DNA of 64,000 nucleotides, taken from Pectinatus cerevisiiphilus (GTDB taxonomy: Bacteria; Bacillota; Negativicutes; Selenomonadales; Selenomonadaceae). The stretch is from NCBI RefSeq assembly GCF_004341685.1, contig NZ_SMAA01000005.1, forward strand, positions 1-64,000. Direction: 5' to 3'. The first letter of the stretch is position 1. Every line of letters begins with the position of its first letter. Made by a program: the position numbers and the translations under genes. The notes under the pieces are model-generated. The model saw only the letters and a program-made list of their open reading frames with translations. It made no database searches and was not told the DNA's origin. Below are positions 616-27,827 of this stretch, in pieces.

Positions 616-665
616 TCAGTATCATTTTTTAACTACAATAATTATAACAGCAGGGAGGAATGAAA

Positions 666-1454
666 TTGAACGAAATTATTGTCATTACATCAGGTAAGGG
701 CGGTGTCGGTAAAACAACGACGGCAGCAAACATTGGTGCCGGTTTAGCCTCTCGGGGGAAAAAAGTTGCTCTTATAGATACGGATACCGGCCTGCGTAAT
801 CTTGATTTGGTATTAGGTGTCGAAAGCCATATATGCTATACGCTTATTGATGTTGCCAAAGGTAAGATTTCTTACGAAAAAGCTCTTATACGCCATCCCC
901 AATACCAGACCTTATATCTTCTCCCTACATCACAAAAATACGACAAATCAGCAATTAACGGCAATGATCTCACAAAAATATGCAAACAAATGCGCAATAG
1001 CTTCGATTTTATTATCATTGATTGTCCCGCCGGTATTGAACAGGGCTTTAAGACAGCTATTGCTGCAGCTAATACGGCAATAATAGTAACTATGCCTGAA
1101 ATGGCAGCCCTGCGTGACGCAGATAAAGTCGTAGGCGAACTTAACCGCGCTGATTTTACTGATATCAAGCTCATCATCAACCGTATCCGACCGGATATGG
1201 TTTCTCGTGGTGACATGCTTGATATAACTGATATCAAAGACATCCTTGGTGTAACCGTCATCGGCCAGATTCCTGACGAAGAAGCAATTATCAAAAGCAC
1301 CAATAGAGGGCAGCCTGTCATAGAAGACAAGTCATCCCTTGCCGCCCAAGCCTATCGGGATATAACCTGCAGGCTTTGTGGTGAAACCGTCCCTTTTCTT
1401 GACCTTAGCTGTAAATCATCTTTTCTCGGTAAACTTAAGCACTTATTTAAATAG
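666..1454 (+). CDS. minD: Septum site-determining ATPase MinD
   Basis: MinD is a membrane-cycling ParA-type ATPase that helps MinC keep FtsZ rings away from the poles. The deviant Walker A motif KGGVGKTT lies at residues 11-18, a DTDTGLRNLD switch region follows near residue 37, and the C-terminus ends in a short amphipathic basic helix (LGKLKHLFK) typical of the MinD membrane anchor. The strong site GGGAGG ends at 658. The ATG at 660 is too close to it, while the in-frame TTG at 666 is spaced seven bases away, giving about 262 residues, the usual family length. No minC or minE is adjacent, which is unusual but seen in some Firmicutes. A ParA/FlhG-like paralogue is less likely given the good match across the whole length. 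Confidence 0.88.
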   Translation: MNEIIVITSGKGGVGKTTTAANIGAGLASRGKKVALIDTDTGLRNLDLVLGVESHICYTLIDVAKGKISYEKALIRHPQYQTLYLLPTSQKYDKSAINGNDLTKICKQMRNSFDFIIIDCPAGIEQGFKTAIAAANTAIIVTMPEMAALRDADKVVGELNRADFTDIKLIINRIRPDMVSRGDMLDITDIKDILGVTVIGQIPDEEAIIKSTNRGQPVIEDKSSLAAQAYRDITCRLCGETVPFLDLSCKSSFLGKLKHLFK

Positions 1455-1465
1455 TATTTTAACTT

Positions 1466-1507
1466 GAGGGCATATCCTACAAAAAAGGATATGCTCTCTT
1501 TTTTTAT
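1466..1507 (+). terminator. Intrinsic terminator after minD
   Basis: GCATATCCT at 1470-1478 pairs with AGGATATGC at 1486-1494, with weaker flanking pairing GAG/CTC, followed by a run of seven T. It lies 12 bases after the minD stop codon. Confidence 0.85.
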
Positions 1508-1560
1508 TTTCCCATGCAAAACCTATCCCTTAATTTAAACTATCATTTTATATAATCTTT

Positions 1561-3003
1561 TTATTTTATCCTTATATTTTTAAACTTTTTTATCCCATTT
1601 TGGGTCTTGCTTATATTTTTAAATCGCAATGTCAGTGAGAGGACAAAAGCAATTGCAATAATAATGCTGGCAATAATTATCGCATAATGAAATCCGCTAT
1701 AAAGTGCTTGGATTTGGGTTGCCGGTATATCCAATACTGCCGCTTTCTTTAGATAATTATTCTGCCCTGCCGTCATCAAGCCTACGAACAAAGGAGTACC
1801 AATAGCAGCTCCCAGTTGAATAAAAGTATTGATAATGGCAATCCCATGTGTTCGGTTTTCCGTTTCTAATTGGCTTAATGCATTTGACTGGTTAGGTGCC
1901 CATGCAAGAGCTATTCCAAAATAAACCAGTGTATTAATAACGGCAATTATGACTATAGGAGTAGTCGGCTGAATACGAGACAATAACAATAAAAACACAC
2001 ACATAATAAAAAAGCCAAGCGGAATGATTGTCTTCCCGCCAATTTTATCATAGATTTTACCGGAAACAGCAGTCATAACACTACACACCAAAACTGAGGG
2101 GAATAAAATCAAGGCCGCCATTAGCGAAGATAACGCTAAGCCATTTTCAAACAACATAGGTAAAATAATATTCATGGAAAATTGCACCATCTGCAAAACT
2201 ATAATCAACACTGCGCCTAATGCAAAATAATATTTTTTAAAAACTCTTATGTTCAACATAGGTTGTTTTAACAATAACTGACGCCGGCAAAAAAGGGCTA
2301 ATATAAAAATACTAACAGCAAAAATAACTACATTTGTCATAATAGGGAAAAAACTTATCATGCTTATGCCATAAACAATAAGGGAGAAGCCTACAGAGGA
2401 TAACAGAATCGATTTATAATCTATTTGAGGCTTTGTAAGTTTTACGGTTTCCTTCAAATAAAGAGAGCCACCAATAATGCAAAACAAAATTACTGGACAC
2501 AGCATAATAAAAAGTGCCCGCCAGCTAAAAAATTGTAAAATGAAACCAGATACAATAGGCCCAAGTGACGGTCCTGCTAAGACTACACAAGTACACAAGC
2601 CCATTACAAATCCCTGTTTTTCCGGTGGATTTATTGCCAGTGCCGCATTAATCATGATAGGGGCAAGCAGCCCTGTCCCAATTGCCTGAACCATCCTTGC
2701 CGCCAGTAAATTGGGGAAGTTAACAGCCAGACCAGCTAAAATTGTTCCTGCAAAAAAAAATGTCATAGCTCCCACATATAATTTTTTAGTAGTAAATGTA
2801 TTTATCAGAAAAGCGGAAACTGGTACCATAATTGCCACAATCAATACGTATCCCGTAGACAACCATTGTATTGTAGTAGCTGTTACTTCCATTTCCACCA
2901 TCATTTTTGATAACGCGACATTTAAAATTGTTTCATTAAATAACGATAAAAAACCGCCTAACAACAGCACCAACATCATTGCCTTTATATTAGTCTTATC
3001 CAT
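1561..3003 (-). CDS. MFS multidrug exporter, DHA2 (14-TM) family
   Basis: A 480-residue membrane protein with the drug:H+ antiporter-2 pattern. Residues 1-30 begin the first helix with the FLSLFNETILNVALSKM motif (family motif D1 region), WLSTGYVL follows at about 47, and GPSLGPIVSGF (antiporter motif C) lies near residue 145. The length and about 14 hydrophobic segments fit EmrB/LmrB-type exporters that use the proton gradient to expel drugs or bile acids. It lies 78 bases downstream of the TetR regulator, in the same direction, with its own Shine-Dalgarno (AGGGGAAG) and a TetR-type operator at 3029-3046. The substrate cannot be inferred. Confidence 0.88.
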   Translation of the reverse strand: MDKTNIKAMMLVLLLGGFLSLFNETILNVALSKMMVEMEVTATTIQWLSTGYVLIVAIMVPVSAFLINTFTTKKLYVGAMTFFFAGTILAGLAVNFPNLLAARMVQAIGTGLLAPIMINAALAINPPEKQGFVMGLCTCVVLAGPSLGPIVSGFILQFFSWRALFIMLCPVILFCIIGGSLYLKETVKLTKPQIDYKSILLSSVGFSLIVYGISMISFFPIMTNVVIFAVSIFILALFCRRQLLLKQPMLNIRVFKKYYFALGAVLIIVLQMVQFSMNIILPMLFENGLALSSLMAALILFPSVLVCSVMTAVSGKIYDKIGGKTIIPLGFFIMCVFLLLLSRIQPTTPIVIIAVINTLVYFGIALAWAPNQSNALSQLETENRTHGIAIINTFIQLGAAIGTPLFVGLMTAGQNNYLKKAAVLDIPATQIQALYSGFHYAIIIASIIIAIAFVLSLTLRFKNISKTQNGIKKFKNIRIK

Positions 3004-3028
3004 TATAATAAACTTCCCCTTTTGTATT

Positions 3029-3046
3029 TAGACCAGTCAGTATATT
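3029..3046. promoter_or_regulatory. LmrA/YxaF-type operator upstream of the exporter
   Basis: TAGACCAGTCAGTATA starts at 3029, just before the exporter ribosome-binding site. It resembles the box bound by the Bacillus subtilis LmrA and YxaF repressors (core GACC-x-GTC). A nearly identical site lies in front of the regulator gene at 3682-3697 in the opposite orientation. Confidence 0.65.
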
Positions 3047-3081
3047 TTAAATATAAAACAGCTATTTTATATTATTAAACC

Positions 3082-3663
3082 TTATGTAGTTTTATACGGC
3101 TTAATAATAACAGCAATTTGTTCAGCAACTGCTGCAAGAGTCGTCGTATCCTTTTTAGTGATAGAAATAGTAATTGCACCTTCTATCATTGCCTGGATCA
3201 CCATTCCTAAGTTTTGGGCTGATTGTGGGAAAATGCCACTTTCCCTTAATTTTTCTGCATAAATTTTTTCTAGCTCTATAAAGGATTTCCGGCAAGCTTC
3301 CCTTAGTGTTTCACTAGACAGATACGTTTCCAGTGACAACAAACTTAAAGACACATTCTCCAATTTACCATCTTTTTTTATAGCCTTCTCCATATCTCTT
3401 ATGACATTTTGTATTGCCAATATAGGGTCTGCATACACACTTAAGCTGGCTCTAATCTTGCTTTGTATTATATCGCTGGCCAATCCAATAGCCGCTAAAG
3501 CCAATTCTTCTTTTCCTTTAGGAAAATAATAATACAGTGACCCTTTTGGTGCATCGCTTTTTTTTAATATCTCATTTAAACCGGTTGCATGGTATCCCTG
3601 CATTTGAAAAAGTCTTGATGCCGCTTTAATCATTTTTTCCCGCGAATCAGTCCTAATATTCAT
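3082..3663 (-). CDS. TetR-family repressor (LmrA/YxaF type)
   Basis: A 193-residue TetR-family regulator. The N-terminal helix-turn-helix is clear: residues 9-55 run from REKMIKAASRLFQ through GYHATGLNEILKKSDAPKGSLYYYFP, the signature of the LmrA/YxaF branch. The rest would be the ligand-binding domain. Met1 at 3663 is preceded by GAGAGGG at good distance. It is the first gene of a two-gene unit with the DHA2 exporter, and matching operators sit at its own promoter and before the exporter, so it most likely represses both. The inducer is unknown. Confidence 0.88.
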   Translation of the reverse strand: MNIRTDSREKMIKAASRLFQMQGYHATGLNEILKKSDAPKGSLYYYFPKGKEELALAAIGLASDIIQSKIRASLSVYADPILAIQNVIRDMEKAIKKDGKLENVSLSLLSLETYLSSETLREACRKSFIELEKIYAEKLRESGIFPQSAQNLGMVIQAMIEGAITISITKKDTTTLAAVAEQIAVIIKPYKTT

Positions 3664-3681
3664 TATTTGAGCCCTCTCTAT

Positions 3682-3729
3682 TATAGTGATCGGTCTACAT
3701 ATTATAATTTATACTAAAATAAACGTCAA
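3682..3729 (-). promoter_or_regulatory. tetR promoter and operator
   Basis: On the minus strand, TTGACG (3729-3724) and TATAAT (3706-3701) are separated by 17 bases. The operator TAGACCGATCACTATA (3697-3682, minus strand) begins a few bases downstream, over the expected transcription start. This arrangement predicts autorepression. Confidence 0.75.
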
Positions 3730-3736
3730 GATAATA

Positions 3737-3924
3737 ACCAAAAACCTGCTTTACTTTTATACCATGGTGTCAATAATATACCTGCCAAAGTGTAAGCCCT
3801 GCTGCCGGTGCTGTCTTCCCAGCTTTATTGCGATCCCTACTTTGCACAATTTCAGCAAATTCTGCTGGTGAAATTCTCCCGTTCCCGACTTTTACAACAG
3901 TACCGATAATATTCCTCACCATAT
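3737..3924. repeat. 188-bp direct repeat, copy 1 (truA 3' end)
   Basis: This stretch is repeated at 5366-5553 in the same orientation with three mismatches that I can count (185/188 identical). It contains the last 50 codons of truA plus its downstream sequence. The repeats bracket dapL; the distance between copies is 1629 bp. Confidence 0.92.
3770..3922 (-). pseudogene. Truncated 3' fragment of truA
   Basis: The minus-strand frame reads the last 50 residues of TruA, from MVRNIIGTVVKVGNG to the C-terminal LTLWQVYY and stop, with one substitution relative to the intact gene (Arg for Lys after VGNG). Upstream of this point the sequence loses all similarity to truA, so the catalytic domain is missing. 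It is a by-product of the duplication that brackets dapL. Confidence 0.88.
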
Positions 3925-4029
3925 TTAACTGGGTATACTTATAACTGGATAGGGCAACGCAGAGGTGCAACATTAGATGATTACGCTGTCATTCCACACC
4001 GGCTATTTATGTAGAAAATGGTCAATAAC

Positions 4030-4058
4030 TTGAAAAAAAGAATTTTTCATTTTATAAT
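4030..4058 (+). promoter_or_regulatory. dapL promoter
   Basis: TTGAAA at 4030-4035 and TATAAT at 4053-4058 are separated by 17 bases, 39 bases upstream of the dapL start codon. dapL thus carries its own promoter between the repeats. Confidence 0.7.
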
Positions 4059-4096
4059 TTTATAATAGGAGAAATACTATCGATAGGAGTAATATT

Positions 4097-5335
4097 ATGG
4101 GTGAAAATTTTATTCAACAATTATTTGCTCAGCGGATTGGTGGAAATCAATTTGGCAAAGATACAGTTATGTATAAATTTGAGAAAATAAAAAGAGCAAA
4201 AAGAGCAGCATGTGCAAAAAATCCTGAGGTAGAATTAATTGATTTAGGTGTAGGAGAGCCGGATTGGATGGCGGATTCCGAAGTGATTGACGTGTTGTAT
4301 AATGAGGCCAAAAAAAGAGAAAATAAAGGTTATACGGATAATGGCATTCAAGAATTTAAAGATGCAGCAGTTGAATACATGGAAAAGGCATACAACATTT
4401 CTGGGTTAGATAATAAAAACGAAGTTAATCATGGTATTGGATCAAAACCAATTCTAGCTTTATTACCCTTGGCTTTTATCAATCCGGGTGATATTGCTAT
4501 TATGACAGTGCCAGGTTATCCAGTATTGGGAACTATGACCAAAGCCTTGAATGGTGAAGTTGTTAACTTACCATTGCTGGCAGAAAATAGCTTTTTCCCA
4601 GACTTAGATTCGCTAACTTCTGAACAGCGTCGTAAAGCAAAATTATTATATATTAATTACCCTAATAATCCAACAGGAGCTACAGCGACTAGGGAATTTT
4701 TTGAAAAGGTAGTACGTTTTGCGCGAGAAAACGAAATTATTGTTGTTGCTGATGCTGCTTATGCAGCTCTTACTTTCGATGGTGAGAAGCCATTGAGTTT
4801 TTTGTCTGTTGATGGTGCAAAAGAGGTAGGAGTAGAAATTCATTCCTTATCCAAAGCCTACAATATGACTGGATGGAGATTAGCCTTTATTTGTGGGAAT
4901 GAATTAGTTGTAAAAGCTTTTGCTGCTGTGAAAGATAATAACGATTCAGGGCAATTTGCTGCAATTCAAAAAGCTGGCATTTATTGCTTACAACATCCGG
5001 AAATTACAAAAAAGACTGCCTTAAAATATTCCCGTCGACATAACATGCTAGTAGAAACTCTTAAAAGTGTAGGTTTTTTAGTTAAAAAACCTAAAGCTTC
5101 TTTTTATCTTTATGTTCAAATTCCAAAGGGAACAAGCGATGGGAGAGTTTTCTCATCGGCAGAGGATTTTTCTGAATATCTAATTACTGAAAAATTAATT
5201 TCTAGTGTTCCTTGGGATGATGCTGGGCATTATATAAGATTCTCGGTTACTTTTGAAGCAAATGATGAAGAGGAAGAGGTCAGAATAGTTAAAGAGATTA
5301 AACGTCGGTTAATGGAAGAAAAGTTTATCTTTTAA
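4097..5335 (+). CDS. dapL: LL-diaminopimelate aminotransferase (DapL-like)
   Basis: A 412-residue fold-type I PLP aminotransferase. The N-terminal block (GGNQFGKDTVMYKFEKIKRA) and the pattern DLGVGEPDWMAD are typical of DapL, which makes LL-diaminopimelate from tetrahydrodipicolinate in one step for lysine and peptidoglycan synthesis. Other motifs are YPNNPTGA near residue 195, and HSLSKAYNMTGWRLAF near 250, with the PLP-binding lysine inside SLSKA. The start has TAGGAG eight bases upstream and a good promoter. It is a single gene on the opposite strand to its neighbours, flanked by duplicated truA ends, with no other dap genes nearby, so horizontal acquisition is likely. A different substrate within the same aminotransferase subfamily cannot be excluded. 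Confidence 0.82.
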   Translation: MGENFIQQLFAQRIGGNQFGKDTVMYKFEKIKRAKRAACAKNPEVELIDLGVGEPDWMADSEVIDVLYNEAKKRENKGYTDNGIQEFKDAAVEYMEKAYNISGLDNKNEVNHGIGSKPILALLPLAFINPGDIAIMTVPGYPVLGTMTKALNGEVVNLPLLAENSFFPDLDSLTSEQRRKAKLLYINYPNNPTGATATREFFEKVVRFARENEIIVVADAAYAALTFDGEKPLSFLSVDGAKEVGVEIHSLSKAYNMTGWRLAFICGNELVVKAFAAVKDNNDSGQFAAIQKAGIYCLQHPEITKKTALKYSRRHNMLVETLKSVGFLVKKPKASFYLYVQIPKGTSDGRVFSSAEDFSEYLITEKLISSVPWDDAGHYIRFSVTFEANDEEEEVRIVKEIKRRLMEEKFIF

Positions 5336-5365
5336 GGGAGTGTTGTGAACGGTCAAATTAAATGT

Positions 5366-5553
5366 ACCAAAAACCTGCTCTACTTTTATACCATGGTGTC
5401 AATAATATACCTGCCAAAGTGTAAGCCCTGCTGCCGGTGCTGTCTTCCCAGCTTTATTGCGATCCCTACTTTGCACAATTTCAGCAAATTCTGCTGGTGA
5501 AATTTTCCCGTTCCCGACTTTTACAACAGTACCGATAATATTTCTCACCATAT
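5366..5553. repeat. 188-bp direct repeat, copy 2 (inside intact truA)
   Basis: The second copy of the repeat at 3737-3924. It forms the genuine 3' end of truA and its immediate downstream bases. The three differences between copies are single C/T changes. Confidence 0.92.
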
Positions 5554-11257: not shown

Positions 11258-12084
11258 GCCAACGCCTCCCCATTCTTTTCCAATTCAGCCATAGCTTGTT
11301 TATATTGTTCCTCGTTAGGAGCTTTTCCATGCCAACCCACAGCATTTTCCATAAACGAAACGCCCTTGCCTTTTACACTTTTAGCAATAATGGCTGTAGG
11401 TTTTCCTTTAGTTTCCCGTGCTTCTTTAAAAGCTGCCCTAATTTGGTCAAAATCATGGGCATCAATATTTATCACATGGAAATTAAAAGCCTTAAATTTT
11501 TCATCAATTGGATATGGTGAGCATATTTCCTTAACAGATCCATCAATTTGCAGATTATTATTATCAACTACCACGGTCAGATTATCAAGCCCATGGCTGC
11601 CCGCAAACATCGAAGCTTCCCATACTTGCCCTTCCTGTAATTCACCATCACCGAGCATAGCATATACGCGAAAATCCTTCTTTTGCACTTTTGCAGATAA
11701 AGCCATACCTACAGCGGCAGAAATTCCCTGTCCAAGAGAACCGGTTGACATATCAACACCAGCTGTGTGTTTCATATCAGGATGTCCTTGCAGATACGAA
11801 TCAATGTGGCGAAGTGTCTTCAAATCTTTTGAAGGGATATATCCTTTCAGTGACAATACAGCATATAGTCCTGGTGCCGCATGTCCTTTTGAGAGAACAA
11901 ACCTGTCTCTATTCGGATCTTTTGCCTTTTGGGGATCTACATTCATTTCTTCAAAATAAAGATAAGTTAAAATATCAGCTGCTGACAATGAACCACCTGG
12001 ATGACCAGATTTTGCGTTATATGTCTCAATTATGATATCTTTGCGCAATTCATTAGCAGTTTTTTTCAAAGCTACATTATCCAT
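11254..12084 (-). CDS. Transketolase, N-terminal subunit (copy 1)
   Basis: The thiamine-diphosphate-binding half of a split transketolase, 276 residues. Motifs are SGHPGGSLSAADILTYLYF near residue 25, LSKGHAAPGLYA near 68, and the cofactor motif GDGELQEGQVWEA near 145 followed by NNLQ (Mg and diphosphate binding). GGAGG precedes the ATG at good spacing. First gene of the operon with the C-terminal half and the RpiB-like isomerase; promoter at 12280-12307. The divergent DeoR gene is a plausible regulator. Confidence 0.92.
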   Translation of the reverse strand: MDNVALKKTANELRKDIIIETYNAKSGHPGGSLSAADILTYLYFEEMNVDPQKAKDPNRDRFVLSKGHAAPGLYAVLSLKGYIPSKDLKTLRHIDSYLQGHPDMKHTAGVDMSTGSLGQGISAAVGMALSAKVQKKDFRVYAMLGDGELQEGQVWEASMFAGSHGLDNLTVVVDNNNLQIDGSVKEICSPYPIDEKFKAFNFHVINIDAHDFDQIRAAFKEARETKGKPTAIIAKSVKGKGVSFMENAVGWHGKAPNEEQYKQAMAELEKNGEALA

Positions 12085-27009: not shown

Positions 27010-27827
27010 TATATATCACCTTCTAATTCTCTAAATATTTTTTCAAACTGAACCCTATCAGGTATTTTCCCGTGCCAAATGGGATTATTTTCCATAAAAG
27101 ATATACCTTTTCCTTTTATCGTATCAGCAATTATAACGGTAGGACGCCCACTAGTAGAACAGGCCATTTCCAATGCATTTCTTATATCGCGAAAATCATG
27201 TCCATTAATTCTTATTACATTCCAATTAAATGCAGCAAACTTTTTATCCAATGGGGCAATACCCATAACGTCTTCATTAGACCCATTTATTTGTAACTTA
27301 TTATAATCAACTATTAATGTAAGATTATCAAGTTTATATTTTACAGCACTCATTAATGCTTCCCAATTTTGTCCTTCATCAAGTTCTCCATCTCCAACAA
27401 TTACATACACACGGAATTTTTCATGTTGCATATGTGCAGCAATTGCCATTCCGCACCCAATGGATAATCCCTGTCCAAGAGAACCTGTAGACATATCTAC
27501 CCCTGGAGTAGTATTCATATCCGGATGGCCTTGTAAGATAGATCCGTACTGTCGCAACGTAGAAAGCTTTTCTTTAGCAAAATACCCTTTTTCTGATAGT
27601 ACTGCATAATAGCTAGGATTACCATGCCCCTTCGAAAGAATTAATCTATCGCGATATTTCCAATTAGGTTCATGAGGTTTTATATTCATTTTCTCAAAAT
27701 AAAGTGTTACCAATATCTCCACCATTGATAAAGCTCCGCCAGGATGTCCAGTTCCTGCTTTTTCTAACATCTGCATTGTACTTAACCGTATCCGCTTGGC
27801 TATTTTTTTTAATTCTATAATATCCAT
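27009..27827 (-). CDS. Transketolase, N-terminal subunit (copy 2)
   Basis: The thiamine-diphosphate-binding half, 272 residues, with AGTGHPGGALSMVEILVTLYF near residue 20, LSKGHGNPSYYAV near 65, and GDGELDEGQNWEA near 140. GAGAGGAA directly precedes the ATG at 27827; an upstream in-frame TTG at 27848 would overlap that site. It comes 42 bases after the PTS permease gene in the same operon. Confidence 0.92.
   Translation of the reverse strand: MDIIELKKIAKRIRLSTMQMLEKAGTGHPGGALSMVEILVTLYFEKMNIKPHEPNWKYRDRLILSKGHGNPSYYAVLSEKGYFAKEKLSTLRQYGSILQGHPDMNTTPGVDMSTGSLGQGLSIGCGMAIAAHMQHEKFRVYVIVGDGELDEGQNWEALMSAVKYKLDNLTLIVDYNKLQINGSNEDVMGIAPLDKKFAAFNWNVIRINGHDFRDIRNALEMACSTSGRPTVIIADTIKGKGISFMENNPIWHGKIPDRVQFEKIFRELEGDI

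Follow-up and report, generated by a model that had tools for sequence, protein, structure and literature searches.

Minimal mobile elements, described in Neisseria, are integrase-free variable slots between conserved genes. Phage-type integration takes place at the 3' ends of genes, e14 in icd being an example. In laboratory cases of homology-facilitated illegitimate recombination, the host DNA is often deleted rather than duplicated. In Streptococcus pneumoniae, transformation generates merodiploids with tandem duplications (PMC3784515), and homology-assisted illegitimate recombination has been proposed for small variable segments (PMC2884548); these two studies support the occurrence in bacteria of a combined homologous and illegitimate process.

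The locus described here, in which dapL is bracketed by two copies of the end of truA (Table 1), is a scar of gene gain, neat but ordinary, and not a new mobile element. The window, i.e., the whole stretch of DNA analysed, covers 64,000 nucleotides of Pectinatus cerevisiiphilus (contig NZ_SMAA01000005.1, assembly GCF_004341685.1), a species represented here by one genome, a 2.63-Mb draft in 47 contigs. The two 188-nt copies lie in the same orientation, 1629 nt from start to start, and are identical at 185 of 188 positions (98.4%), each comprising 33 nt of truA 3' flank and a 155-nt coding part, which amounts, give or take a base, to 51 codons with the stop. Their only differences are three C/T substitutions (3751 T/5380 C, 3876 C/5505 T, and 3914 C/5543 T), which may have arisen by mutation of the dead stub or reflect differences between strains; the corresponding bases of congeners, compared by eye, do not polarise them. 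Since the next-best direct repeats in the window do not exceed 71 nt or 79% identity, chance is excluded as the source of the 188-nt repeat. The genome contains a single full truA and a single stub, the latter probably being non-functional sequence by now, and no gene other than dapL lies between the copies. The original prediction, which had claimed the duplication of the truA end, the intact gene with its dead far stub, and dapL as the sole gene between the copies, was thus accurate on the structure of the locus.

Table 1. Features of the minD-truA region, with coordinates referring to the window.
Feature	Position	Strand	Basis or remark
minD, conserved left neighbour of the slot	660..1454	+	ParA/MinD-type ATPase (Pfam); adjoins truA in four congeners
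3.9-kb insertion between minD and truA	1455..5365	.	As such absent from four congeners (L128-L131 compared with the window)
MFS efflux pump, LmrB-like, below the LmrB cut-off	1561..3003	-	PF07690; best NCBIfam NF000060, 325 bits (cut-off 800)
TetR regulator, LmrA/YxaF type	3082..3663	-	PF21993 and PF00440
Far repeat copy, truA 3'-end stub (33 nt flank, stop, and 51 codons)	3737..3924	-	Sequence comparison
Relic of an IS256-family (Transposase_mut) IS end, about 68 bp in from the terminus	3936..3971	+	Local alignment; terminus and body missing
Promoter-like site of dapL, TTGAAA-17-TATAAT	4030..4058	+	Consensus match only
dapL, LL-diaminopimelate aminotransferase, 412 aa	4097..5335	+	NF004937 equivalog, 710 bits (cut-off 585)
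Near repeat copy, 3' end of intact truA and 33 nt flank	5366..5553	-	Sequence comparison
truA, intact, 256 aa	5399..6169	-	TIGR00071, 201 bits; sole full copy in the genome

The position of dapL was compared with the corresponding region of four other Pectinatus genomes, a check suggested by the original prediction, which had regarded dapL as inserted cargo. All four support that view, each having one truA adjoining minD and none (0/4) carrying dapL at that place. The gap between minD and truA spans approximately 50-270 bp in three of them (G001, G002, and G004), whereas in the fourth, G003 (L129:9616-14136), it is occupied by a LysR regulator, asrA, asrB, asrC, and a rubrerythrin-like gene; in the window, it contains the MFS pump, the TetR regulator, the truA stub, and dapL. 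Because it is nearly empty in three congeners and filled with unrelated cargo in G003, the gap is a variable slot with conserved flanks and no integrase, and the 3.9-kb segment is, judged by synteny, an insertion in it. No truA repeat surrounds the G003 cargo. A TetR-MFS pair homologous to that of the window (59% and 65% identical) occurs at a different locus of G003.

The slot resembles minimal mobile elements in that alternative cassettes lie between minD and truA, no mobility genes were found in it, and exchange through homologous flanks would be plausible, although we know of no natural transformation in Pectinatus. It differs in that part of one flank occurs here on both sides of the cargo.

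Between the truA stub and dapL, abutting the inner edge of the stub, lies a 36-bp relic that aligns 68-105 bp inside the terminus of an IS256-family element, scoring 21.5-26.5, whereas shuffled sequences reached 18.5 at most. The relic core has one further match within the genus, and a class-wide pattern scan detected it in five more genomes, with up to nine copies in one of them, while a reversed control pattern gave no matches in the same scan. In two genomes (G305 and G312), the stretch corresponds to the ends of a multi-copy IS of approximately 1.5 kb that carries a Transposase_mut gene (PF00872) and whose copies are 99.5% identical within a genome. The core motif was not found elsewhere in the P. 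cerevisiiphilus genome, which has 10 matches to Transposase_mut, several of them at contig ends. The original prediction, which had seen neither integrase nor transposase, was correct in that no integrase lies between the copies, but had overlooked this relic. An IS256-family composite transposon was considered and rejected, as no second IS copy was found on the truA side of dapL, the only trace being a single 36-bp relic on one side, and the repeat itself consists of 188 bp of truA.

Because the stub abuts this IS scrap, its inner edge may derive from an IS-associated truncation instead of marking where an integrating molecule ended; sequence alone does not distinguish an IS-trimmed boundary from that of a duplication. 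The relic might also be older than the duplication. For the same reason, namely its position at the inner edge of the stub, the scrap points to illegitimate, IS-associated recombination as the process that formed, or subsequently trimmed, one or more of the joints.

The locus is probably a recombination scar, left when homologous and illegitimate events together inserted DNA and duplicated part of truA, an IS taking part in truncation or joining. We infer an order of events in which foreign or relocated DNA would have been added at the variable minD-truA slot in this Pectinatus lineage, the arrival of dapL duplicating part of truA, so that the full gene was kept and a second 3' end came to lie beyond dapL. 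The likely route would start from incoming or circularised DNA in which dapL was accompanied by a segment of truA and a fragment of an IS256-family element, possibly as a circular intermediate; one joint would have formed by pairing with the truA homology, presumably with the help of RecA, and the other by illegitimate recombination in which the IS would have had a part. An equivalent route would be a longer merodiploid duplication, later trimmed by an IS-associated deletion.

Such a scar would share with the S. pneumoniae merodiploids the partial duplication of a core region during DNA uptake; IS remnants act as repeats in those, and the duplications there measure approximately 100-900 kb, against 188 bp here (PMC3784515). 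It would likewise resemble homology-facilitated illegitimate recombination, in which one joint is homologous, the other is not, and foreign DNA is trapped between them, with the difference that the joints at this locus can be neither dated nor assigned.

A repeat-cargo-repeat arrangement with one intact gene fits a single crossover, a merodiploid duplication, and an insertion with target duplication alike, and the single crossover was the first of two mechanisms named in the original prediction, which did not decide between them. In its plain form, dapL and 188 bp of truA would have been borne on a circular molecule that integrated by one crossover with no role for the IS. The geometry is exactly that of a Campbell product (188 - cargo - 188, direct, with truA intact), and the three substitutions could reflect ends originating from different strains. 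However, genes for replication or mobilisation and plasmid genes are all absent from the 1.6-kb unit, and a further event is needed to account for the IS scrap beside the stub, which modifies the model even where the geometry suits it. Searches against phage, plasmid, and viral sequences gave no match to the junctions and only distant aminotransferase matches, so an origin from any of these was rejected. We consider integration of this kind, without the IS, unlikely.

Decay of a complete second truA, arisen by gene duplication and deprived of its 5' part by IS insertion and deletion, would explain why the stub ends beside an IS256-family scrap, and it shares ground with the favoured recombination scar in its trimmed-merodiploid form. 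The arrangement that would betray such a duplicate, dapL beside a second full truA, was present in no genome examined, in either the genus or the family, which makes this account improbable.

Site-specific integration at the truA 3' end, by a gene-restoring element whose integrase has since been lost, draws on the likeness to elements that carry the 3' end of their target: as in integration of the e14/icd type, the gene end is restored (truA is intact at 256 aa) and a second end is left as a stub. The likeness ends there, as dapL stands alone between the repeats, with neither an integrase nor phage genes, no short att-like core is demonstrated, and no family of elements is found at truA. A search for the same truA-end arrangement elsewhere, which the original prediction had proposed, revealed no second truA C-terminus among 189 genomes of the family except in G165, an assembly with 7% contamination and long frames. 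The suggestion that an element uses this end as its insertion site was therefore not sustained. Taken together, the lack of an integrase, the absence of such use of the truA end in other genomes, and the missing truA repeat around the independent G003 cargo leave site-specific integration poorly supported and very improbable.

It is harder still to credit that in Pectinatus very small gene circles lacking an integrase still enter and leave the chromosome at the truA 3' end, so that dapL could even now be excised as a circle of 1629 bp, to be lost or passed on. Recombination between 188-bp repeats that are 98.4% alike is nevertheless expected to be possible and would leave truA intact; a clean RecA-mediated deletion of dapL is thus plausible from the repeat itself. 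Least probable of all is that a short repeat was misassembled in this draft of 47 contigs, because the copies differ at three sites, lie in the interior of a 187-kb contig with unique sequence on all four sides, and have flanking genes in the expected synteny.

Read as a recombination scar, the locus preserves well the addition of a single metabolic gene beside a core gene in the absence of dedicated mobility genes; the repeat, the IS debris, and the empty site can all be identified. It shows the minD-truA gap to be variable in Pectinatus and leaves the general picture unchanged.

The dapL phylogeny does not settle the placement of the window copy, and with it a donor or a foreign origin: the p-AU values for its union with congener dapL, Sporomusa-type dapL, and Propionispira dapL were 0.0445 (borderline), 0.024, and 0.138, respectively. 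In G001 and G004, dapL occurs at another locus, directly behind marR and before a predicted pyridoxamine-oxidase-like gene, the G001 protein being identical to that of Pectinatus brassicae DSM 24661. The marR-dapL order is also found in Propionispira and, from upstream DNA, in Sporomusa; marR precedes dapL in most of the near relatives checked, and the window copy is without it. The gene is absent from G002 and G003.

Upstream of the window copy, a near-consensus site is a candidate promoter, a consensus match not being proof. A lysine riboswitch was also considered at this position, as GATAGGGCAACGCAGAGGTGCAAC resembles the start of an L-box. It was rejected: Rfam gave no match to RF00168 in the window and none above the cut-off in the genus, and the class-wide pattern scan assigned GATAGGGCAACGCAGAGGTGCAAC to the IS256-family element. 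No structured RNA was detected in the dapL leader (z = -0.84). The acetylase DAP pathway was rejected as an alternative route, as its DapD (TIGR03532) had no match above the cut-off in the five Pectinatus genomes (G000-G004); two of these five are also without dapL.

Two minor observations concern the repeats and the IS family. The 71-nt direct repeat of the window (11720-11790 and 27463-27533, 79% identity) has its first copy within a transketolase-like gene, which suggests that its copies belong to paralogous genes. In G002 (L148/L135, near 1421-1640), a relic of approximately 220 bp of the same IS256-family end, without a transposase, adjoins a GNAT-like gene, named from its sequence.
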